Positions 34,424 through 59,352 of a DNA stretch of 64,000 nt are shown in pieces. The translations under genes and the position numbers were made by a program. Origin of the DNA: Turicibacter sanguinis (GTDB taxonomy: Bacteria; Bacillota_I; Bacilli_A; MOL361; Turicibacteraceae); NCBI RefSeq assembly GCF_013046825.1, contig NZ_CP053187.1:62001-126000 (forward strand). Reading direction: 5' to 3'. Numbering within the stretch: the stretch's first letter is position 1; each line of letters opens with the position of its first letter. A model generated the notes under the pieces. It made no database searches. It saw only the letters and a program-made list of their open reading frames with translations, and was not told where the DNA came from.

Positions 34424-34507
34424 TGGTGCGGGTGACAGGAGTTGAACCTGCACACCAAAGGTACTAGAGCCTAAATCTAGCGCGTCTGCCAATTCCGCCA
34501 CACCCGC
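34424..34507 (-). tRNA. tRNA-Leu (anticodon TAG)
   Basis: Class II tRNA with variable arm; acceptor GCGGGTG/CACCCGC, anticodon loop TTTAGGC, encoded CCA. Last gene of the six-tRNA operon. Confidence 0.97.
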
Positions 34508-34569
34508 ATATCATTATTATAGCAAATTTTTAATAAAAATCAATACCATAATGACTCAAAATAAAAAAA

Positions 34570-34645
34570 TGGTGTCCTGCAGAGGACTCGAACCTCTGAC
34601 CCTCTGATTAAAAGTCAGATGCTCTACCAACTGAGCTAGCAGGAC
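34570..34645 (-). tRNA. tRNA-Lys (anticodon TTT)
   Basis: Acceptor GTCCTGC/GCAGGAC, anticodon stem-loop CTGACTTTTAATCAG, encoded CCA. Confidence 0.97.
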
Positions 34646-34677
34646 ACATTTAGAAATATAAAATTACTTTTATTTAA

Positions 34678-34752
34678 TGGCTGGGCTAGCTGGATTCGAA
34701 CCAGCGCATGACGGAGTCAAAGTCCGTTGCCTTACCGCTTGGCTATAGCCCA
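34678..34752 (-). tRNA. tRNA-Gln (anticodon TTG)
   Basis: Acceptor TGGGCTA/TAGCCCA, anticodon stem-loop CGGACTTTGACTCCG, encoded CCA. Confidence 0.97.
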
Positions 34753-34775
34753 ATATGATTTTAGTTTCTTATTAA

Positions 34776-34851
34776 TGGTGGAGGATGACGGGCTCGAACC
34801 GCCGACCCTCTGCTTGTAAGGCAGATGCTCTCCCAGCTGAGCTAATCCTCC
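34776..34851 (-). tRNA. tRNA-Val (anticodon TAC)
   Basis: Acceptor GGAGGAT/ATCCTCC, anticodon stem-loop CTGCCTTACAAGCAG, encoded CCA. Confidence 0.97.
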
Positions 34852-34858
34852 AACTGAA

Positions 34859-34934
<76 letters not shown>

Positions 34935-34943
34935 ACTAATAAA

Positions 34944-35020
34944 TGGTGACCCGTACGGGATTCGAACCCGTGTATGCATGCGTGAAAGGCATGTGTGTTA
35001 AACCGCTTCACCAACGGGCC
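34944..35020 (-). tRNA. tRNA-Glu (anticodon TTC)
   Basis: Acceptor GGCCCGT with ACGGGTC, anticodon stem-loop ATGCCTTTCACGCAT, encoded CCA. First gene of the six-tRNA operon. Confidence 0.96.
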
Positions 35021-40958: not shown

Positions 40959-41035
40959 TGGGGCGACTGATGGGAATCGAACCCACGAATGCCGGAGCCA
41001 CAATCCGGTGCGTTAACCACTTCGCCACAATCGCC
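40959..41035 (-). tRNA. tRNA-His (anticodon GTG)
   Basis: Array A. Anticodon stem-loop CCGGATTGTGGCTCCGG, extra 5' G expected for tRNA-His, encoded CCA. Confidence 0.97.
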
Positions 41036-41036
41036 A

Positions 41037-41110
41037 TGGCAGGGGTGGCAGGAATCGAACCCACGCTAACGGTTTTGGAGACCGCTGTTCTACCGTTAAA
41101 CTACACCCCT
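41037..41110 (-). tRNA. tRNA-Trp (anticodon CCA)
   Basis: Array A. Acceptor AGGGGTG/CACCCCT, anticodon loop CTCCAAA, encoded CCA. Confidence 0.97.
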
Positions 41111-41120
41111 ATTAAATTAA

Positions 41121-41196
<76 letters not shown>

Positions 41197-41205
41197 ACTA
41201 ATAAA

Positions 41206-41282
41206 TGGTGACCCGTACGGGATTCGAACCCGTGTATGCATGCGTGAAAGGCATGTGTGTTAAACCGCTTCACCAACGGGCC
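41206..41282 (-). tRNA. tRNA-Glu (anticodon TTC)
   Basis: Array A. Same sequence as the tRNA-Glu at 34944. Confidence 0.96.
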
Positions 41283-41292
41283 ATTATTATAA

Positions 41293-41369
41293 TGGCGCCC
41301 CAACTAGGACTCGAACCTAGGACCCCTTGATTAACAGTCAAGTGCTCTAACCAACTGAGCTATTGAGGC
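41293..41369 (-). tRNA. tRNA-Asn (anticodon GTT)
   Basis: Array A. Acceptor GCCTCAA with TTGGGGC (one T-G pair), anticodon stem-loop CTTGACTGTTAATCAAG, encoded CCA. First tRNA after the 5S gene. Confidence 0.97.
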
Positions 41370-41376
41370 ATTGTAC

Positions 41377-41486
41377 AACCTAGCAACGTCCTACTCTCGC
41401 ACTTGCGTACTACCCTCGGCGCTAAGGAGCTTAACTTCTGTGTTCGGTATGGGAACAGGTGTGACCTCCTTGCCATCATCACTAGA
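41377..41486 (-). rRNA. rrf: 5S rRNA embedded in tRNA array A
   Basis: On the minus strand it contains GGTCACACCTGTTCCCATAC, GAACACAGAAGTTAAGCTCC and GAGAGTAGGACG, the conserved 5S core. Terminal stem CTAGTGA/TTGCTAG; about 110 bases. No 16S or 23S gene is adjacent: tRNA-Leu precedes it and tRNA-Asn follows. Confidence 0.95.
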
Positions 41487-41493
41487 TTATATT

Positions 41494-41582
41494 TGGTGCC
41501 TAGGGCCGGAATCGAACCGGCACGGGTGTCACCACCCGCAGGATTTTAAGTCCTGTGCGTCTACCAGTTCCGCCACCCAGGC
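41494..41582 (-). tRNA. tRNA-Leu (anticodon TAA)
   Basis: Array A. Class II tRNA, anticodon stem-loop CAGGACTTAAAATCCTG, encoded CCA; directly before the 5S gene. Confidence 0.97.
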
Positions 41583-41618
41583 ATTTCATTATTTCAGGCA
41601 CGCGCCTATTTTCAAAAA

Positions 41619-41694
41619 TGGTGTCCTGCAGAGGACTCGAACCTCTGACCCTCTGATTAAAAGTCAGATGCTCTACCAACTGAGCTAGCAGGAC
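41619..41694 (-). tRNA. tRNA-Lys (anticodon TTT)
   Basis: Array A. Same sequence as the tRNA-Lys at 34570. Confidence 0.97.
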
Positions 41695-41699
41695 TTTTA

Positions 41700-41775
41700 T
41701 GGTGGAGGATGACGGGCTCGAACCGCCGACCCTCTGCTTGTAAGGCAGATGCTCTCCCAGCTGAGCTAATCCTCC
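41700..41775 (-). tRNA. tRNA-Val (anticodon TAC)
   Basis: Array A. Same sequence as the tRNA-Val at 34776. Confidence 0.97.
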
Positions 41776-41778
41776 AAA

Positions 41779-41854
41779 TGGTGGCTTGGGACGGAATCGA
41801 ACCGCCGACACAAGGATTTTCAGTCCTTTGCTCTACCGACTGAGCTACCAAGCC
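41779..41854 (-). tRNA. tRNA-Phe (anticodon GAA)
   Basis: Array A. Acceptor GGCTTGG/CCAAGCC, anticodon stem-loop AAGGACTGAAAATCCTT, encoded CCA. Confidence 0.97.
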
Positions 41855-41862
41855 TATTTAAA

Positions 41863-41938
41863 TGGCGGTCCAGACGGGAATCGAACCCGCGATCTCCTGC
41901 GTGACAGGCAGGCATGTTAACCGCTACACCACTGGACC
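41863..41938 (-). tRNA. tRNA-Asp (anticodon GTC)
   Basis: Array A. Acceptor GGTCCAG/CTGGACC, anticodon stem-loop CCTGCCTGTCACGCAGG, encoded CCA. Confidence 0.97.
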
Positions 41939-41941
41939 TTT

Positions 41942-42017
<76 letters not shown>

Positions 42018-42034
42018 ATGTTATTTAATTAATA

Positions 42035-42127
42035 TGGCGGAGGAAGAGGGATTCGAACCCCCGCTACGCTCTCACGTACTGTCGGTTTTCAAGACCGATC
42101 CCTTCAGCCGGACTTGGGTATTCCTCC
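42035..42127 (-). tRNA. tRNA-Ser (anticodon TGA)
   Basis: Array A. Class II tRNA with long variable arm, anticodon stem-loop TCGGTCTTGAAAACCGA, encoded CCA. Confidence 0.97.
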
Positions 42128-42137
42128 ACATATTAGT

Positions 42138-42214
42138 TGGTAGCGGAGGAGGGACTCGAACCCCCAACCTCACGGGTATGAACCGTACGCTCTAGCCAGT
42201 TGAGCTACTCCGCC
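42138..42214 (-). tRNA. Elongator tRNA-Met (anticodon CAT)
   Basis: Array A. Acceptor GGCGGAG with CTCCGCT, anticodon stem-loop ACGGTTCATACCCGT; closely resembles B. subtilis elongator Met rather than the lysidine-modified Ile tRNA. Confidence 0.9.
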
Positions 42215-42238
42215 ATTTTATTATTTTTTTTATTTAAT

Positions 42239-42314
42239 TGGTGGAGACTAGGGGGATCGAACCCCTGACCTCCTGCGTGCAAGGCAGGCGCTCTCCCAGC
42301 TGAGCTAAGTCCCC
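42239..42314 (-). tRNA. tRNA-Ala (anticodon TGC), present only in array A
   Basis: Anticodon stem-loop CTGCCTTGCACGCAG, encoded CCA. TATTTAATT-type sequences flank it on both sides; array B lacks this gene. Confidence 0.97.
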
Positions 42315-42329
42315 TGGGTATTTAATTAA

Positions 42330-42406
42330 TGGTCGGGAAGACAGGATTCGAACCTGCGACCCCCTGGTCCCAAACCAGGTGCTCTACCAAGCTGAGCCAC
42401 TTCCCG
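42330..42406 (-). tRNA. tRNA-Pro (anticodon TGG)
   Basis: Array A. Acceptor CGGGAAG/CTTCCCG, anticodon stem-loop CCTGGTTTGGGACCAGG, encoded CCA. Confidence 0.97.
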
Positions 42407-42411
42407 TTTTA

Positions 42412-42488
42412 TGGCGCGCCCAAGAGGAGTCGAACCCCTAACCTTTTGATCCGTAGTCAAACGCTCTATCCAATTGAGCTATGGGCGC
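42412..42488 (-). tRNA. tRNA-Arg (anticodon ACG)
   Basis: Array A. Acceptor GCGCCCA/TGGGCGC, anticodon stem-loop TTTGACTACGGATCAAA; A34 would be edited to inosine. Confidence 0.97.
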
Positions 42489-42496
42489 TATTAAGT

Positions 42497-42585
42497 TGGT
42501 GCCTAGGGCCGGAATCGAACCGGCACGGGTGTCACCACCCGCAGGATTTTAAGTCCTGTGCGTCTACCAGTTCCGCCACCCAGGC
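42497..42585 (-). tRNA. tRNA-Leu (anticodon TAA)
   Basis: Array A, second copy; same sequence as at 41494. Confidence 0.97.
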
Positions 42586-42623
42586 ATTTATTTATCCATA
42601 AATGTTTATTCTTTTTTTTAAAA

Positions 42624-42699
42624 TGGTGTCCTGCAGAGGACTCGAACCTCTGACCCTCTGATTAAAAGTCAGATGCTCTACCAACTGAGCTAGCAGGAC
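42624..42699 (-). tRNA. tRNA-Lys (anticodon TTT)
   Basis: Array A, second copy; same sequence as at 41619. Confidence 0.97.
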
Positions 42700-42705
42700 T
42701 TTTAA

Positions 42706-42780
42706 TGGCTGGGCTAGCTGGATTCGAACCAGCGCATGACGGAGTCAAAGTCCGTTGCCTTACCGCTTGGCTATAGCCCA
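42706..42780 (-). tRNA. tRNA-Gln (anticodon TTG)
   Basis: Array A. Same sequence as the tRNA-Gln at 34678. Confidence 0.97.
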
Positions 42781-42789
42781 TTTTCAAAA

Positions 42790-42874
42790 TGGTGGTGGGG
42801 GACGGATTCGAACCGCCGAACTCGGAGAGAGCGGATTTACAGTCCGCCGCGTTTAGCCACTTCGCTACCCCACC
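42790..42874 (-). tRNA. tRNA-Tyr (anticodon GTA)
   Basis: Array A. Class II tRNA, acceptor GGTGGGG/CCCCACC, anticodon stem-loop GCGGACTGTAAATCCGC. Confidence 0.97.
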
Positions 42875-42877
42875 AGA

Positions 42878-42953
<76 letters not shown>

Positions 42954-42971
42954 ATCTTTTTTATTTAATTA

Positions 42972-43047
42972 TGGTGGAGGATGACGGGCTCGAACCGCCG
43001 ACCCTCTGCTTGTAAGGCAGATGCTCTCCCAGCTGAGCTAATCCTCC
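42972..43047 (-). tRNA. tRNA-Val (anticodon TAC)
   Basis: Array A, second copy; same sequence as at 41700. Confidence 0.97.
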
Positions 43048-43074
43048 ATGCAGATATTTCTATCTAATTTTAAA

Positions 43075-43151
43075 TGGTGACCCGTACGGGATTCGAACCC
43101 GTGTATGCATGCGTGAAAGGCATGTGTGTTAAACCGCTTCACCAACGGGCC
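43075..43151 (-). tRNA. tRNA-Glu (anticodon TTC)
   Basis: Array A, first transcribed gene; same sequence as at 41206. Confidence 0.96.
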
Positions 43152-44978: not shown

Positions 44979-45055
44979 TGGGGCGACTGATGGGAATCGA
45001 ACCCACGAATGCCGGAGCCACAATCCGGTGCGTTAACCACTTCGCCACAATCGCC
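44979..45055 (-). tRNA. tRNA-His (anticodon GTG)
   Basis: Array B; identical to 40959-41035. Confidence 0.97.
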
Positions 45056-45056
45056 A

Positions 45057-45130
45057 TGGCAGGGGTGGCAGGAATCGAACCCACGCTAACGGTTTTGGAG
45101 ACCGCTGTTCTACCGTTAAACTACACCCCT
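45057..45130 (-). tRNA. tRNA-Trp (anticodon CCA)
   Basis: Array B; identical to 41037-41110. Confidence 0.97.
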
Positions 45131-45140
45131 ATTAAATTAA

Positions 45141-45216
<76 letters not shown>

Positions 45217-45225
45217 ACTAATAAA

Positions 45226-45302
45226 TGGTGACCCGTACGGGATTCGAACCCGTGTATGCATGCGTGAAAGGCATGTGTGTTAAACCGCTTCACCAACGGG
45301 CC
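45226..45302 (-). tRNA. tRNA-Glu (anticodon TTC)
   Basis: Array B; identical to 41206-41282. Confidence 0.96.
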
Positions 45303-45312
45303 ATTATTATAA

Positions 45313-45389
45313 TGGCGCCCCAACTAGGACTCGAACCTAGGACCCCTTGATTAACAGTCAAGTGCTCTAACCAACTGAGCTATTGAGGC
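45313..45389 (-). tRNA. tRNA-Asn (anticodon GTT)
   Basis: Array B; identical to 41293-41369. Confidence 0.97.
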
Positions 45390-45396
45390 ATTGTAC

Positions 45397-45506
45397 AACC
45401 TAGCAACGTCCTACTCTCGCACTTGCGTACTACCCTCGGCGCTAAGGAGCTTAACTTCTGTGTTCGGTATGGGAACAGGTGTGACCTCCTTGCCATCATC
45501 ACTAGA
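45397..45506 (-). rRNA. rrf: 5S rRNA embedded in tRNA array B
   Basis: Identical to the 5S gene of array A, again between tRNA-Leu and tRNA-Asn and without 16S or 23S genes. Confidence 0.95.
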
Positions 45507-45513
45507 TTATATT

Positions 45514-45602
45514 TGGTGCCTAGGGCCGGAATCGAACCGGCACGGGTGTCACCACCCGCAGGATTTTAAGTCCTGTGCGTCTACCAGTTCCGCCACCCAG
45601 GC
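45514..45602 (-). tRNA. tRNA-Leu (anticodon TAA)
   Basis: Array B; identical to 41494-41582. Confidence 0.97.
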
Positions 45603-45638
45603 ATTTCATTATTTCAGGCACGCGCCTATTTTCAAAAA

Positions 45639-45714
45639 TGGTGTCCTGCAGAGGACTCGAACCTCTGACCCTCTGATTAAAAGTCAGATGCTCTACCAAC
45701 TGAGCTAGCAGGAC
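45639..45714 (-). tRNA. tRNA-Lys (anticodon TTT)
   Basis: Array B; identical to 41619-41694. Confidence 0.97.
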
Positions 45715-45719
45715 TTTTA

Positions 45720-45795
45720 TGGTGGAGGATGACGGGCTCGAACCGCCGACCCTCTGCTTGTAAGGCAGATGCTCTCCCAGCTGAGCTAATCCTCC
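45720..45795 (-). tRNA. tRNA-Val (anticodon TAC)
   Basis: Array B; identical to 41700-41775. Confidence 0.97.
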
Positions 45796-45798
45796 AAA

Positions 45799-45874
45799 TG
45801 GTGGCTTGGGACGGAATCGAACCGCCGACACAAGGATTTTCAGTCCTTTGCTCTACCGACTGAGCTACCAAGCC
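45799..45874 (-). tRNA. tRNA-Phe (anticodon GAA)
   Basis: Array B; identical to 41779-41854. Confidence 0.97.
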
Positions 45875-45882
45875 TATTTAAA

Positions 45883-45958
45883 TGGCGGTCCAGACGGGAA
45901 TCGAACCCGCGATCTCCTGCGTGACAGGCAGGCATGTTAACCGCTACACCACTGGACC
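45883..45958 (-). tRNA. tRNA-Asp (anticodon GTC)
   Basis: Array B; identical to 41863-41938. Confidence 0.97.
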
Positions 45959-45961
45959 TTT

Positions 45962-46037
<76 letters not shown>

Positions 46038-46054
46038 ATGTTATTTAATTAATA

Positions 46055-46147
46055 TGGCGGAGGAAGAGGGATTCGAACCCCCGCTACGCTCTCACGTACT
46101 GTCGGTTTTCAAGACCGATCCCTTCAGCCGGACTTGGGTATTCCTCC
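46055..46147 (-). tRNA. tRNA-Ser (anticodon TGA)
   Basis: Array B; identical to 42035-42127. Confidence 0.97.
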
Positions 46148-46157
46148 ACATATTAGT

Positions 46158-46234
46158 TGGTAGCGGAGGAGGGACTCGAACCCCCAACCTCACGGGTATG
46201 AACCGTACGCTCTAGCCAGTTGAGCTACTCCGCC
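46158..46234 (-). tRNA. Elongator tRNA-Met (anticodon CAT)
   Basis: Array B; identical to 42138-42214. The tRNA-Ala gene that should precede it in transcription is missing. Confidence 0.9.
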
Positions 46235-46261
46235 ATTTTATTATTTTTTTTATTTGATTAA

Positions 46262-46338
46262 TGGTCGGGAAGACAGGATTCGAACCTGCGACCCCCTGGT
46301 CCCAAACCAGGTGCTCTACCAAGCTGAGCCACTTCCCG
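46262..46338 (-). tRNA. tRNA-Pro (anticodon TGG)
   Basis: Array B; identical to 42330-42406. Confidence 0.97.
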
Positions 46339-46343
46339 TTTTA

Positions 46344-46420
46344 TGGCGCGCCCAAGAGGAGTCGAACCCCTAACCTTTTGATCCGTAGTCAAACGCTCTA
46401 TCCAATTGAGCTATGGGCGC
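46344..46420 (-). tRNA. tRNA-Arg (anticodon ACG)
   Basis: Array B; identical to 42412-42488. Confidence 0.97.
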
Positions 46421-46428
46421 TATTAAGT

Positions 46429-46517
46429 TGGTGCCTAGGGCCGGAATCGAACCGGCACGGGTGTCACCACCCGCAGGATTTTAAGTCCTGTGCGTCTACC
46501 AGTTCCGCCACCCAGGC
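46429..46517 (-). tRNA. tRNA-Leu (anticodon TAA)
   Basis: Array B, second copy; identical to 42497-42585. Confidence 0.97.
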
Positions 46518-46555
46518 ATTTATTTATCCATAAATGTTTATTCTTTTTTTTAAAA

Positions 46556-46631
46556 TGGTGTCCTGCAGAGGACTCGAACCTCTGACCCTCTGATTAAAAG
46601 TCAGATGCTCTACCAACTGAGCTAGCAGGAC
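46556..46631 (-). tRNA. tRNA-Lys (anticodon TTT)
   Basis: Array B, second copy; identical to 42624-42699. Confidence 0.97.
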
Positions 46632-46637
46632 TTTTAA

Positions 46638-46712
46638 TGGCTGGGCTAGCTGGATTCGAACCAGCGCATGACGGAGTCAAAGTCCGTTGCCTTACCGCTT
46701 GGCTATAGCCCA
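46638..46712 (-). tRNA. tRNA-Gln (anticodon TTG)
   Basis: Array B; identical to 42706-42780. Confidence 0.97.
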
Positions 46713-46721
46713 TTTTCAAAA

Positions 46722-46806
46722 TGGTGGTGGGGGACGGATTCGAACCGCCGAACTCGGAGAGAGCGGATTTACAGTCCGCCGCGTTTAGCCACTTCGCTAC
46801 CCCACC
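46722..46806 (-). tRNA. tRNA-Tyr (anticodon GTA)
   Basis: Array B; identical to 42790-42874. Confidence 0.97.
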
Positions 46807-46809
46807 AGA

Positions 46810-46885
<76 letters not shown>

Positions 46886-46905
46886 ATCTTTTTTTTATTT
46901 AATTA

Positions 46906-46981
46906 TGGTGGAGGATGACGGGCTCGAACCGCCGACCCTCTGCTTGTAAGGCAGATGCTCTCCCAGCTGAGCTAATCCTCC
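46906..46981 (-). tRNA. tRNA-Val (anticodon TAC)
   Basis: Array B, second copy; identical to 42972-43047. Confidence 0.97.
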
Positions 46982-47008
46982 ATGCAGATATTTCTATCTA
47001 ATTTTAAA

Positions 47009-47085
47009 TGGTGACCCGTACGGGATTCGAACCCGTGTATGCATGCGTGAAAGGCATGTGTGTTAAACCGCTTCACCAACGGGCC
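47009..47085 (-). tRNA. tRNA-Glu (anticodon TTC)
   Basis: Array B, first transcribed gene; identical to 43075-43151. Confidence 0.96.
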
Positions 47086-55420: not shown

Positions 55421-56365
55421 ATGATACGTGTCGCATTAGATGGAACAGGAGATTTTTTTACGATTCAAGAAGCGGTTGATTCCATCTCAGATAGTAAACC
55501 TGAAACGATTTATATTAAAAAGGGAGTCTATGAAGAAAAATTGGTGATTGAAAAGCCCCATTTAACCTTTATTGGGGAAGAGGCAAAAGAAACAATCATT
55601 ACCTTCTCTGATTATGCCAAAAAGCAATGGAATGAAGATGAAATTTATCAGACCTTTCGAACGTATACGGCTTTAATTGGAGCTAATCATTTATGCTTTT
55701 CTAACTTAACCTTTAAAAACGAAGCGGGAAAAGGAAGTGAGGTAGGACAAGCACTCGCATTATATGTAGATGGAGATTGTATTCAATTTCACGACTGCTA
55801 TTTCCTGGCGCATCAAGATACGCTATTTACGGGACCTCTACCACCAGCACCTATTAAGCCTGGGTCTTTTGTCGGCCCAAGAGAACACGCTAAACGAGAA
55901 GTGGGACGCCAATACTTTAACAACTGCTACATTCAAGGAGATATTGATTTTATCTTTGGAAGCGCAACGGCTTACTTTGAAAAATGTACTCTTTTTTCAA
56001 ATGCATTAAACGGACACAGTTATATTACAGCTGCCTCTACTCAAAAAGAAGAACCCTACGGCTACGTCTTTGAATCTTGCCAATTATTAAGTAATGCCAC
56101 ACCGCACACAGTTTTCCTTGGTCGTCCTTGGAGAGAATATGCACACGTTGCTTTTTTAAATTGTTATATGGGCCATCATATTCACCCTCTAGGATGGGAT
56201 GATTGGGGAAAATTAAGCTCTCATGACACCGTACAATTTGTTGAATACAACAGTTATGGTCCCGGTGCAACACCCCATCAACGAGCTTCATATGCCAAAG
56301 TCATTGATCATCCAACTTATTATACTCGCGAACGTGTGTTAAAAGGTTGGAATCCGAAATGTTAA
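55421..56365 (+). CDS. Pectinesterase family protein (CE8)
   Basis: 314 residues, right-handed beta-helix. Catalytic features: Gln in GQALALYVDGD (Q110), Gln-Asp in FLAHQDTLFTG (Q132, D133), second Asp in GDIDFIFGSATAYFEKC (D176) and Arg in LGRPWREYAHVAF. It removes methyl groups from galacturonan. No signal peptide, so it works on imported oligosaccharides in the cytosol. GGGGGG lies before the ATG. Single gene, followed by a terminator about 170 bases on. Confidence 0.9.
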   Translation: MIRVALDGTGDFFTIQEAVDSISDSKPETIYIKKGVYEEKLVIEKPHLTFIGEEAKETIITFSDYAKKQWNEDEIYQTFRTYTALIGANHLCFSNLTFKNEAGKGSEVGQALALYVDGDCIQFHDCYFLAHQDTLFTGPLPPAPIKPGSFVGPREHAKREVGRQYFNNCYIQGDIDFIFGSATAYFEKCTLFSNALNGHSYITAASTQKEEPYGYVFESCQLLSNATPHTVFLGRPWREYAHVAFLNCYMGHHIHPLGWDDWGKLSSHDTVQFVEYNSYGPGATPHQRASYAKVIDHPTYYTRERVLKGWNPKC

Positions 56366-56536
56366 GGGAATACCGTAAAATTAAAATCAATATTTCATTG
56401 AAACAAATTAGTGATTAAACAAGATGAATAGTAATTTTCAAAATAACTAAAAATAATGATTTTATAAAATATTGAACCTACTATTTACTGTATTTATAGT
56501 TCATAATTATACTATAAATACAATTATAAATGCTTA

Positions 56537-56567
56537 AAAAGGTCTATGCTAAGCATAGACCTTTTGT
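56537..56567. terminator. Terminator after the pectinesterase gene
   Basis: AAAAAGGTCTATGCT pairs with AGCATAGACCTTTT with almost no loop. Confidence 0.85.
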
Positions 56568-56588
56568 AGTAATTAGAGCCTTTTTTTG

Positions 56589-56616
56589 AAGCTATCTCGT
56601 TATAGCTCTTTTTTAT
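56589..56616 (+). terminator. Second terminator after the pectinesterase gene
   Basis: AGCTAT pairs with ATAGCT around six bases, followed by six T. Confidence 0.65.
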
Positions 56617-56795
56617 ATAATATTCACAACACTTTTTTAATAGTATATAAAAATAAAATACAGGATTAATGATTTATCCTGACTATAAATAATCTCTATT
56701 AATAAAATAAAAAAGTTTACTATTCAAAATAAATATCAAGAAAAAAATTTATTTTCAACTATCGAAACTTCATCGCTTTTTTGTCGAAAAAAACG

Positions 56796-56824
56796 TTGTA
56801 TATGTTGATATGATCCGCTATAAT
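56796..56824 (+). promoter_or_regulatory. First of two duplicated promoters upstream of a small RNA
   Basis: TTGTAT, 17-base spacer, TATAAT, with GTCTAG starting eight bases after the -10 box. The same arrangement recurs 88 bases downstream. Confidence 0.65.
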
Positions 56825-56883
56825 TGCGTATGTCTAGCAAAAAAAACGTCAAATATTGTCGAAAAATTAAAACATTAAAATTA

Positions 56884-56912
56884 TTGTATATTTTGTCATT
56901 TGTTGTTATAAT
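56884..56912 (+). promoter_or_regulatory. Second duplicated promoter, directly upstream of the small RNA
   Basis: TTGTAT, 17-base spacer, TATAAT; the predicted start at 56919 is the first base of GTCTAGTTATAA, the 5' arm of the RNA helix described next. Confidence 0.7.
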
Positions 56913-56918
56913 TCATGT

Positions 56919-57057
56919 GTCTAGTTATAAAATACTTTTTTTAACATTCTATTTCTCTAATATAAATCTTTACCACACAACTATATACCTTTTTTAAAAA
57001 AACTAAATCATTAGAACAATCTTCATCTTATTATAACTAGACTTGGATTGTTTTTTT
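56919..57057 (+). ncRNA. Probable structured small RNA of about 140 bases
   Basis: Starts seven bases after a TATAAT box and ends in the T-run of a hairpin (AACAATC 57015-57021 with GATTGTT 57046-57052). Its first twelve bases GTCTAGTTATAA are exactly complementary to TTATAACTAGAC at 57031-57042, which lies in the terminator loop, so a pseudoknot or a long-range switch is possible. No reading frame with a ribosome site is inside. No RNA family recognised. Confidence 0.6.
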
Positions 57058-57121
57058 AAACCATTAAGTAATTATATCTCACGAGTATGATTTTATTACT
57101 GTAAATACCTATCAATATTGA

Positions 57122-57144
57122 AGGGTCCTAGACCCGCTTTTTTA
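57122..57144 (+). terminator. Terminator between the small RNA and the 57192 gene
   Basis: GGGTC pairs with GACCC around three bases, followed by GC and six T. It probably stops read-through from the small-RNA promoters. Confidence 0.7.
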
Positions 57145-57191
57145 TTTATTTTATGAATGAATAACTAATAACCTAATAAAGGAGGTTGAAA

Positions 57192-57398
57192 ATGATCTCA
57201 CCTAATCATTTAAACAATATCTTACTCATTATAGATGAAGTAAAGCTAATCCACTTCCATAAAACCTCTTTACTTCATCAATCCTTGATTTCTAATACCG
57301 AAAAAAATAAAACATATAGACTAATCACAGATATAACAAAGCTTGAATTACTAATTAACCAATTAGAAGTGGTTATAAAATCATTAGAAAAAATCTAA
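57192..57398 (+). CDS. Unknown 68-residue protein
   Basis: Predicted all-helical, with a heptad-like second half (LITDITKLELLINQLEVVIK) suggesting a coiled coil. AAAGGAGG is six bases before the ATG at 57192, a very strong site. No family recognised. It lies upstream of the XRE regulator gene, separated by two repeated operator-like sequences. Confidence 0.65.
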   Translation: MISPNHLNNILLIIDEVKLIHFHKTSLLHQSLISNTEKNKTYRLITDITKLELLINQLEVVIKSLEKI

Positions 57399-57465
57399 TT
57401 TTCAAAAGCATCATCATAATAATTTGATAAATCTTCTAAATTTATTTTTTATCCCTTGAAACATA

Positions 57466-57507
57466 AATATACCACAAAAGTGTAGTATTGTCATTCAAAA
57501 TATACTA
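57466..57507. promoter_or_regulatory. Operator-like repeat 1 upstream of the XRE gene
   Basis: 42-base unit containing ATACCACAAAAGTGTAGTAT, an imperfect dyad (TACCAC/GTGTAGTA). 38 of 42 bases match the unit 83 bases downstream. Confidence 0.65.
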
Positions 57508-57548
57508 TAATTTCTCAAAAAATTCTTAAATTATAGAGAAAATAACAA

Positions 57549-57590
57549 AATATACCACAATAGTGTAGTATTGTCATTTAAAATACACCA
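57549..57590. promoter_or_regulatory. Operator-like repeat 2 upstream of the XRE gene
   Basis: Second copy with ATACCACAATAGTGTAGTAT; ends about 50 bases before the XRE start codon. Probably a binding site of that regulator itself. Confidence 0.65.
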
Positions 57591-57642
57591 CAAACTTTAA
57601 TAAATATCCATTACATCTAATCATACGAAAGGAGCATTCTAT

Positions 57643-57849
57643 TTGTCCTTTAATTCCTTTTTATCGAAGTATAAAATAACTGGGTATGCACTATCAAGAA
57701 TGACTGGTTTAAGCCAATCCACTATTGCAGCTTGGACTAGCGGTGTAAGAGATCCGATGGGAATGTCGTTAAAGAATGCGCTAAAAATTTGTAAAGCTCT
57801 AAATATTGACCTTAATACGCTTCACAAAGAATTGAATCAGAAAAATTAA
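57643..57849 (+). CDS. XRE-family helix-turn-helix regulator
   Basis: 68 residues, a single Cro/C1-type domain: KITGYALSRMTGLSQSTIAA is helices 2-3 and WTSGVRDPMG precedes the last helices ICKALNIDLNTLHKEL. It starts at TTG with AAAGGAG eight bases upstream. The paired repeats before it suggest autoregulation. An IS30 element lies directly downstream, so any following gene of the same operon may have been displaced. Confidence 0.85.
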   Translation: MSFNSFLSKYKITGYALSRMTGLSQSTIAAWTSGVRDPMGMSLKNALKICKALNIDLNTLHKELNQKN

Positions 57850-57900
57850 AATTAATTATCATCAAACTTACTATAACTATCTAATTTTTATTTATGACGA

Positions 57901-58947
57901 ATTGTCAATACAAATGCGACAGTTTCTCATGAAATAGCTCGAATGAAGTTTTCCACCCTAAACATTTTCGTGGTCGATGATTAATGAGGCAGAGTGCCTC
58001 ATTAATCTCTTCGTCACTGACTCGTGCTAAATCTGTCTTCTTCGGGAAAAACTCTCGAAGAAGACCATTGGCATTTTCATTACTTCCTCTTTGCCAAGAC
58101 GAATAGGCATCTGCGAAGTAAACAGGAACCTTTAAATCAGCTTCTACTTTGGAATAACAAGCAAACTCTTTTCCTCGATCAACCGTATAAGTTTTAAAGG
58201 TGTCTTTAGGAAAGAGTTTATATAACTCACTAATCGCTCGGTACATTTCTGTTGCTGAGCGATTTTCTATTTTAATGGCCACATAAAAACGTGTTTGACG
58301 TTCAACAAAGGTCGCCAAGCAACCTTTACTCTTTCCACGACTTGAAACAACCGTATCTAATTCCCAGTGCCCAAACGTTTCACGTCTTTTTACTTCTTTG
58401 GGACGTTGATGAATCGACGTTCCAATGTTAAATCGTCCGCGTGTTTCTCGTGGTTTTCGTCGCTTTCCTTTTTGTCTTAAACAACTTAAATCTCCTAACA
58501 AAATGGTTTCATCATAAATCCAACGATAAATGGTTTTAAATGAAAGAACACCCTTTAAAACGGTATTAGAAATTTGTTCAGGCGACCAGGTTAACTTTAA
58601 ATAATGTTGGATGGTCTGAATGACTTGTTCAGATTTCTTCTCTGGACAACGACAACTTAATCGACGTTGTCCAGCTAATTCTTCTGCTAACTCAGCCTGA
58701 TACGTCTTTTGAGTATTTCGTTTCAGTTCACGAGCAATCGTTGAATGATGGCGATTTAGTTGTTGAGCGATTTGTCTCGTTGAATAGCCCATTTTTGAAA
58801 GAACTTCTATACGTGTGCGCTCAAATGTGTTAAGATGTTTATAACTCATAAATAGATCTCCTTGTTAAGAATTTTGTGTGGTAACTTCATTCTATAACAA
58901 AGATCCTATTTATGAGTTTTTTTTTGTGTCGCACTTAATATTACAAT
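57901..58947 (-). mobile_element. Complete IS30 family insertion sequence
   Basis: 1047 bases bounded by imperfect 21-base inverted repeats: ATTGTCAATACAAATGCGAC at 57901 and, on the other strand, ATTGTAATATTAAGTGCGAC ending at 58947 (15 of 21 match). An intact transposase fills it. A target duplication could not be recognised with confidence. Confidence 0.85.
57905..58849 (-). CDS. IS30 family transposase
   Basis: 314 residues, full length. N-terminal helix-turn-helix YKHLNTFERTRIEVLSKMGY with IARELKRNT; catalytic DDE: FGHWELDTVVSSRG (Asp), KTYTVDRGKEFACY (Asp), and RGSNENANGLLREFFPKKTD (Glu). C-terminal INHRPRKCLGWKTSFELF is typical. AAGGAG precedes the ATG. Probably active. Confidence 0.95.
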   Translation of the reverse strand: MSYKHLNTFERTRIEVLSKMGYSTRQIAQQLNRHHSTIARELKRNTQKTYQAELAEELAGQRRLSCRCPEKKSEQVIQTIQHYLKLTWSPEQISNTVLKGVLSFKTIYRWIYDETILLGDLSCLRQKGKRRKPRETRGRFNIGTSIHQRPKEVKRRETFGHWELDTVVSSRGKSKGCLATFVERQTRFYVAIKIENRSATEMYRAISELYKLFPKDTFKTYTVDRGKEFACYSKVEADLKVPVYFADAYSSWQRGSNENANGLLREFFPKKTDLARVSDEEINEALCLINHRPRKCLGWKTSFELFHEKLSHLY

Positions 58948-59121
58948 CTATCTTATAGAATATACCCCATTTATAGAATATATTAAATAATTTATGACTA
59001 CACATTAATTTTTATTTTATGTGGTAGGGATGATCTGTATTTCTAAATTTATTTTCTTCCTATAAAAACTATTAAATTTAATGTACATCTTCTAAAACTA
59101 ATGTGTGACCTTTAAATAAGA

Positions 59122-59177
59122 GGAACTATCGGATAATAGATAATTAGCTTTATCTGCGAACCATAGCTCCTTTTTTT
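59122..59177 (+). terminator. Orphan plus-strand terminator right of the IS30 element
   Basis: Outer stem GGAACTATCGG with CCATAGCTCC (one mismatch, one bulge), inner stem AGATAA/TTATCT, then seven T. No plus-strand gene is between it and IS30, so it may have ended the XRE transcript before insertion. The rest of 58948-59352 is AT-rich and empty. Confidence 0.6.
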
Positions 59178-59352
59178 ATTCTTATTGGTGAAAAAATTTT
59201 CATTTATTTTCAAACTAATATACGAAGTCATCTTTTATATACACTAAAGGAATGGCAGTTTAAGCTGATAATTTATAGAATACTAAGCATAGTGTTTACT
59301 ATATTTATCTTTCATCATTATAAAAGCTACTTCCTTATATCCCCTTTTCTTA

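Follow-up and report, generated by a model that had tools for sequence, protein, structure and literature searches.

Small RNAs under the control of sporulation regulators are a known kind of element (PMC9147052; PMC10267692). Those described in Bacillus include SurA (before asymmetric division), SurC (sigma-K) and CsfG and Bvs196 (sigma-F/G) (PMC9147052). In Clostridioides difficile, the small RNAs SpoX and SpoY act on the spo0A mRNA, and SpoX has a 5′ seed and exists as short and long isoforms that arise via an internal terminator (PMC10267692). Among protein-coding targets, spoIIG and spoIIE of B. subtilis are transcribed from Spo0A-activated sigma-A promoters (PMC12090719), and the published core of the 0A box is TGTCGAA (PMC3485338). 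A limited literature search found no study of small RNAs in Turicibacter and no description of the locus reported here.

We analyzed a 64,000 nt stretch (hereafter, the window) of the genome of T. sanguinis MOL361T (2,999,687 bp, CP053187.1; PMC11165905). Downstream of a pectinesterase gene, an intergenic region has a pair of similar promoters, each downstream of a perfect match to the Spo0A box, and two terminators ahead of a small ORF (Table 1). We tentatively read this region as a Spo0A-responsive, species-specific, short untranslated transcription unit that starts from the tandem promoters P1 and P2, a reading that falls somewhat short of probable. Its most likely output would be a small RNA or an attenuated leader of the ORF at 57192.

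Table 1. Features of the candidate RNA locus and its neighbors (positions in the window).
Feature	Position	Strand	Basis or remark
Pectinesterase gene	55421-56365		Pfam PF01095; 5′ neighbor of the candidate RNA region
Strong terminator-like hairpin, possibly bidirectional	56537-56565	+	3′ of the pectinesterase gene
Putative Spo0A box 1, TTGTCGAAAA	56781-56790	+	Sequence; about -51 to -42 from the predicted P1 start
Predicted promoter P1, TTGTAT-N17-TATAAT	56796-56824	+	Sequence; TTGTAT 56796-56801, TATAAT 56819-56824
GTCTAG at the predicted P1 start	56832-56837	+	Sequence
Putative Spo0A box 2, TTGTCGAAAA	56856-56865	+	Sequence; about -63 to -54 from the predicted P2 start
Predicted promoter P2, TTGTAT-N17-TATAAT, extended -10 (TGTTATAAT)	56884-56912	+	Sequence; TTGTAT 56884-56889, TATAAT 56907-56912
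Arm A, GTCTAGTTATAA, predicted RNA 5′ end	56919-56930	+	Perfect inverted repeat
Predicted short RNA from P2, ~140 nt	56919-57057	+	From the positions of P2 and of terminator 1
Predicted terminator 1, AGAACAATCT / GGATTGTTTT stem, 22-nt loop, T run	57013-57057	+	-9.7 kcal/mol, z -2.6
Arm B, TTATAACTAGAC, inside the terminator 1 loop	57031-57042	+	Perfect inverted repeat
Predicted terminator 2, GGGTCCTAGACCC GC TTTTTT	57123-57143	+	Hairpin 57123-57135, GGGTC-CTA-GACCC; holds the second CTAGAC
Small ORF, 68 aa, Shine-Dalgarno AAAGGAGG	57192-57398	+	Possible gene behind a leader
Cro/CI-type regulator gene	57643-57849		3′ of the 68-aa ORF
IS30 transposase gene	57905-58849		3′ of the Cro/CI-type regulator gene

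Duplicated promoters in a gene-free region

P1 and P2 lie 88 nt apart and are the only matches to TTGTAT-N17-TATAAT in the window. Each is followed by GTCTAG at its predicted start, the second copy being at 56919. A sequence-only reading had described this arrangement with all coordinates right, and its view that the region is free of genes and bounded by further terminators also held, as hairpins are present at 56537-56565 and at 57123-57135. The first of these has a 13-bp stem, a 3-nt loop and TTTT at its 3′ end. It folds strongly (-22.6 kcal/mol, z -6.6 for 56527-56577) and would insulate the candidate RNA on its upstream side. The Spo0A boxes and the small ORF with its Shine-Dalgarno sequence were both missing from the sequence-only reading.

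Only P2 has an extended -10. The -35 hexamers of both promoters are poor, matching the sigma-70 consensus at three of six positions, which is why neither was listed by the promoter scanner. The spacers between the motifs differ between the two copies. Aligned together with their upstream parts, the P1 and P2 segments scored 73, compared with 46.1 ± 4.7 (maximum 68.5) for mononucleotide shuffles, all 2000 of which were exceeded. In 20 Mb of Markov sequence modeled on the AT-rich region we found no pair of promoters sharing a TTGNNN -35 and the 6-mer after the -10. Given both results, P1 and P2 are probably the products of an old tandem duplication that has preserved the box, the -35, the -10 and GTCTAG. 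The window contains 13 copies of GTCTAG or its complement, and four of these fall within ~300 nt at this locus, one at each start site and one in each terminator.

A transcript from P1 would start near 56832 and be ~228 nt long. The stretch framed by promoter and terminator is apparently non-coding, and terminator 1 is weak. A 55-aa ORF that spans P2 (56830-56997) was considered and rejected, as it belongs to no family and its coding score is within the range of the intergenic background.

Putative Spo0A boxes and the spoIIAA control

A search of the 3.0 Mb genome for TTGTCGAAAA-N20-49-TATAAT gave exactly two matches, those at P1 and P2. Matches to box plus TATAAT in the other four Turicibacter genomes are in unrelated places and were set aside. 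The box sequence itself is not enriched: the genome has 22 copies, and the reversed control occurs 32 times. Most copies are therefore attributable to chance, and a lone copy means little. Given 22 copies, a same-orientation pair 75 nt apart appears unusual; by a rough estimate, the expectation for any such pair within 100 bp is ~0.015.

In Bacillus, spoIIAA is a classic direct target of Spo0A. We took the region upstream of this gene as a positive control for the form of box used in Turicibacter. In all five Turicibacter genomes, which represent five species, TTGTCGAAA occurs 71-77 nt before the spoIIAA start codon (at G000:C1:1695-1704 in one case), and this near-fixed distance is kept where the flanking bases have diverged. 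A related genus has a similar sequence, TTGTCGAA, before spoIIAA. Thus, TTGTCGAAA is probably a Spo0A box. No perfect 0A box was found within ~500 nt before spoIIGA in the five Turicibacter genomes, which leaves spoIIAA as the positive control. The T. bilis genome has the variant TGACGAA far upstream of spoIIGA. Upstream of spoIIGA, all five genomes also have a conserved TTGACAGATTTTACA, followed after a gap of ~21 nt by a -10-like TACAAT or TAAAAT, an arrangement resembling that of the B. subtilis spoIIG promoter with its long spacer.

Several points count against control by Spo0A. The distance from box to promoter differs between P1 and P2, and box 2 may be a mere by-product of the duplication. 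Moreover, MOL361T has been described as non-spore-forming (PMC11165905), despite the presence in its genome of spo0A (Spo0A_C match 2.4e-45) and of spoIIAA-spoIIAB-sigF-like genes.

Predicted pairing between the RNA 5′ end and the terminator loop

The 12 bases at the predicted P2 start (GTCTAGTTATAA) are an exact complement of part of the terminator 1 loop, with 100 nt between the arms, as had been noted from the letters of the sequence. With pseudoknots disallowed, folding of the 141-nt RNA gave the helix of arms A and B at 78% (-12.6 kcal/mol) and the terminator 1 stem at 19%. The two are mutually exclusive unless they coexist as a pseudoknot, and arms A and B could pair before the 3′ arm of terminator 1 is transcribed. 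The terminator stem has 10 pairs (57013-57022/57045-57054), of which only two are G-C. A 12-bp helix in a 22-nt loop, with flanks of 8 and 2 nt, looks strained, so competition, or a partial pseudoknot of GUCUAG with CUAGAC, would be expected rather than a full one. The earlier proposal of a pseudoknot, or of a choice between a long-range helix and termination, is retained in part: the predicted pairing of 5′ end and loop stands, as do the exclusive helices of the pseudoknot-free fold, whereas a function for the pairing is putative.

Chance could account for the pairing of the ends in this intergenic stretch, which is very AT-rich and species-specific; the 12-mer would then have no function, whether or not the promoters are real. 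We rate this explanation as falling just short of probable; it is compatible with a Spo0A-responsive RNA, and the confidences given to the two therefore do not sum to one. The window contains five independent perfect 12-mer inverted repeats with arms separated by 50-200 nt, compared with 1.1 ± 1.0 under a Markov null, so such a repeat by itself is not rare. Half of the 12-mer (6 of 12 bases) is the AT palindrome TTATAA, which places the information in GTCTAG/CTAGAC. Genome-wide, the 12-mer with up to one mismatch allowed is no commoner than its reversed control (20 sites compared with 34), and the overall fold of the 141-nt RNA has a z of only -1.5. Against chance, it appears unusual for arm A to coincide with the predicted start while arm B falls in the loop of the terminator. 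Among dinucleotide shuffles of the 141-nt RNA, 0.5% had an inverted repeat of at least 12; 0.7% had an arm that began in the first 6 nt, and in 0.015% the first 12 nt were complemented anywhere in the RNA. The latter two figures were measured after the fact and are uncorrected for the selection of this locus from many. The return of GTCTAG at P1 and of CTAGAC in terminator 2 also argues against chance.

A possible leader of the small ORF or a possible DNA operator

Transcription attenuators of Firmicutes are leaders that combine a terminator with an antiterminator. The region from 56919 could likewise be the 5′ leader of the 57192-57398 ORF, which P1 and P2 would drive, with terminators 1 and 2 as serial attenuators and the pairing of 5′ end and loop as the antiterminator. 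We consider this unlikely, but it competes seriously with a free small RNA because the ORF, with a strong Shine-Dalgarno sequence, follows terminator 2 after only ~50 nt. Visual inspection gave no convincing promoter in the interval from terminator 2 to the ORF start. The mutually exclusive helices, and the ability of arms A and B to pair ahead of the terminator's 3′ arm, also fit attenuation, as does the recurrence of GTCTAG at both starts and CTAGAC in both terminators. However, the ORF has a weak coding score and no relatives in GTDB contigs, phages, plasmids, Pfam or NCBIfam, and none that is convincing in PHROGs. A candidate promoter picked out by eye (TTAAGT-N16-TATGAT, 57064-57091) could drive the ORF alone, terminator 2 would still stop most read-through, and no site for a ligand or an anti-terminator protein was recognized.

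It is very improbable that GTCTAG is a DNA operator, that is, a half-site for a repressor at +1 of P1 and P2 that loops to inverted copies downstream: GTCTAG does lie 7 and 6 nt past the -10s of P1 and P2, a few nt 3′ of the -10 being the classical operator position, and a Cro/CI-type regulator is encoded at 57643, but GTCTAG itself is non-palindromic and the likely sites of that regulator are another motif (TACCACAANAGTGTAGTA, found twice upstream of its gene).

Two copies of TACCACAA(A/T)AGTGTAGTATTGTCATT are located just 5′ of the regulator gene, at 57470-57495 and 57553-57578 (83 bp apart), and the first 18 bases of the repeat are a near palindrome. Judged by position and symmetry, these are probably autoregulatory operators of the Cro/CI-type regulator.

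Genomic context and search for relatives

In T. bilis, the pectinesterase gene is followed after ~530 bases by a DnaJ-like gene. Between these shared neighbors we found no counterpart of the promoters, the small ORF, the regulator or the IS30 element, and alignment of the T. bilis intergenic region 3′ of the pectinesterase gene to this locus was no better than alignment of shuffles. The block missing in T. bilis corresponds to 56366-59352, with the same flanking genes. Neither the small ORF nor the regulator was convincingly matched in any of the other four Turicibacter genomes. From this pattern, the region was acquired, is species-specific or was lost elsewhere. A mobile element with 12-bp terminal repeats was also considered and rejected, as by eye the arms have no adjoining target-site duplication. 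Elsewhere in the window, nearly identical tRNA/5S arrays are repeated at 34427-35020, 40962-43151 and 44982-47085.

No Rfam family matched 56300-57700 at the gathering threshold, and there were weak matches only. The region is intergenic and lacks an Rfam family, in keeping with the proposal of an undescribed RNA, whose regulatory role would be putative. No DNA relatives of the RNA were detected in eight genomes of the order, in phage and plasmid records or in viral contigs, a set from which records very near this genome may be absent, and a scan of GTDB contigs with the pectinesterase as query revealed no relative of the locus. The RNA thus shows no conservation within these collections, which counts against it. 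Weak DNA matches in two genomes, G002 and G003 (77-78% over 73 nt), were rejected as AT-rich coincidences in the 3′ end of a gene for an HD-type protein, and a match in G005, from the related genus, is inside coding sequence. Viral contigs with box-TTGTAT-TATAAT or TTGTAT-TATAAT-GTCTAG held no related RNA.

A model for the locus

In the Spo0A-responsive unit that we favor, phosphorylated Spo0A, at entry into stationary phase or sporulation, would lead polymerase to make a short untranslated RNA from the sigma-A-type promoters P1 and P2. The RNA would start at GTCTAG, with the length set by the promoter used, and end mostly at terminator 1, which is weak; terminator 2 would serve as a back-up. 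We infer the firing of the promoters, their binding and activation by Spo0A and the RNA end at terminator 1 from the arrangement of these elements. Terminator 1 (z -2.6), the strong upstream hairpin and a promoter alignment beyond that of shuffles argue for such a unit; the two G-C pairs and long loop of terminator 1 count against it.

In the finished RNA, the 5′ end would pair with the loop of terminator 1 to form a 5′-3′ clasp, and during synthesis the same pairing would weaken the terminator. The clasp is a reasonable but putative addition to the model, and its use as a switch is a hypothesis. It is quite improbable, on our assessment, that the first 12 nt of a Spo0A-switched RNA act as the antiterminator of its own terminator, giving the unit two alternative products: a clasped small RNA and, on read-through, an mRNA for a lineage-specific small protein. 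If the Spo0A-responsive reading is true, Turicibacter, a genus common in the gut, would have a candidate RNA regulated by Spo0A. This would in turn suggest roles for Spo0A beyond spore formation in a type strain that retains spo0A but is described as non-spore-forming (PMC11165905).

Comparison with known systems

The candidate resembles SurA, SurC, CsfG and Bvs196 in being a short intergenic RNA placed under a sporulation regulator. It differs from these Bacillus RNAs in that it has no Rfam family, its transcription is predicted and its putative control is by Spo0A boxes at sigma-A-type promoters. The likeness to SpoX and SpoY is one of kind, as both are small RNAs that belong to the Spo0A network of a spore-former from the gut; they target the spo0A mRNA, whereas the T. 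sanguinis candidate has no assigned target. With the attenuators of Firmicutes, the locus shares a long-range helix that excludes a terminator ahead of a small ORF, in this case without a recognized Rfam riboswitch, T-box or protein-binding leader. Like spoIIG and spoIIE, it has 0A boxes upstream of a sigma-A-type promoter, but here the output is apparently non-coding, the spacing is the normal 17 nt and the promoter is duplicated.
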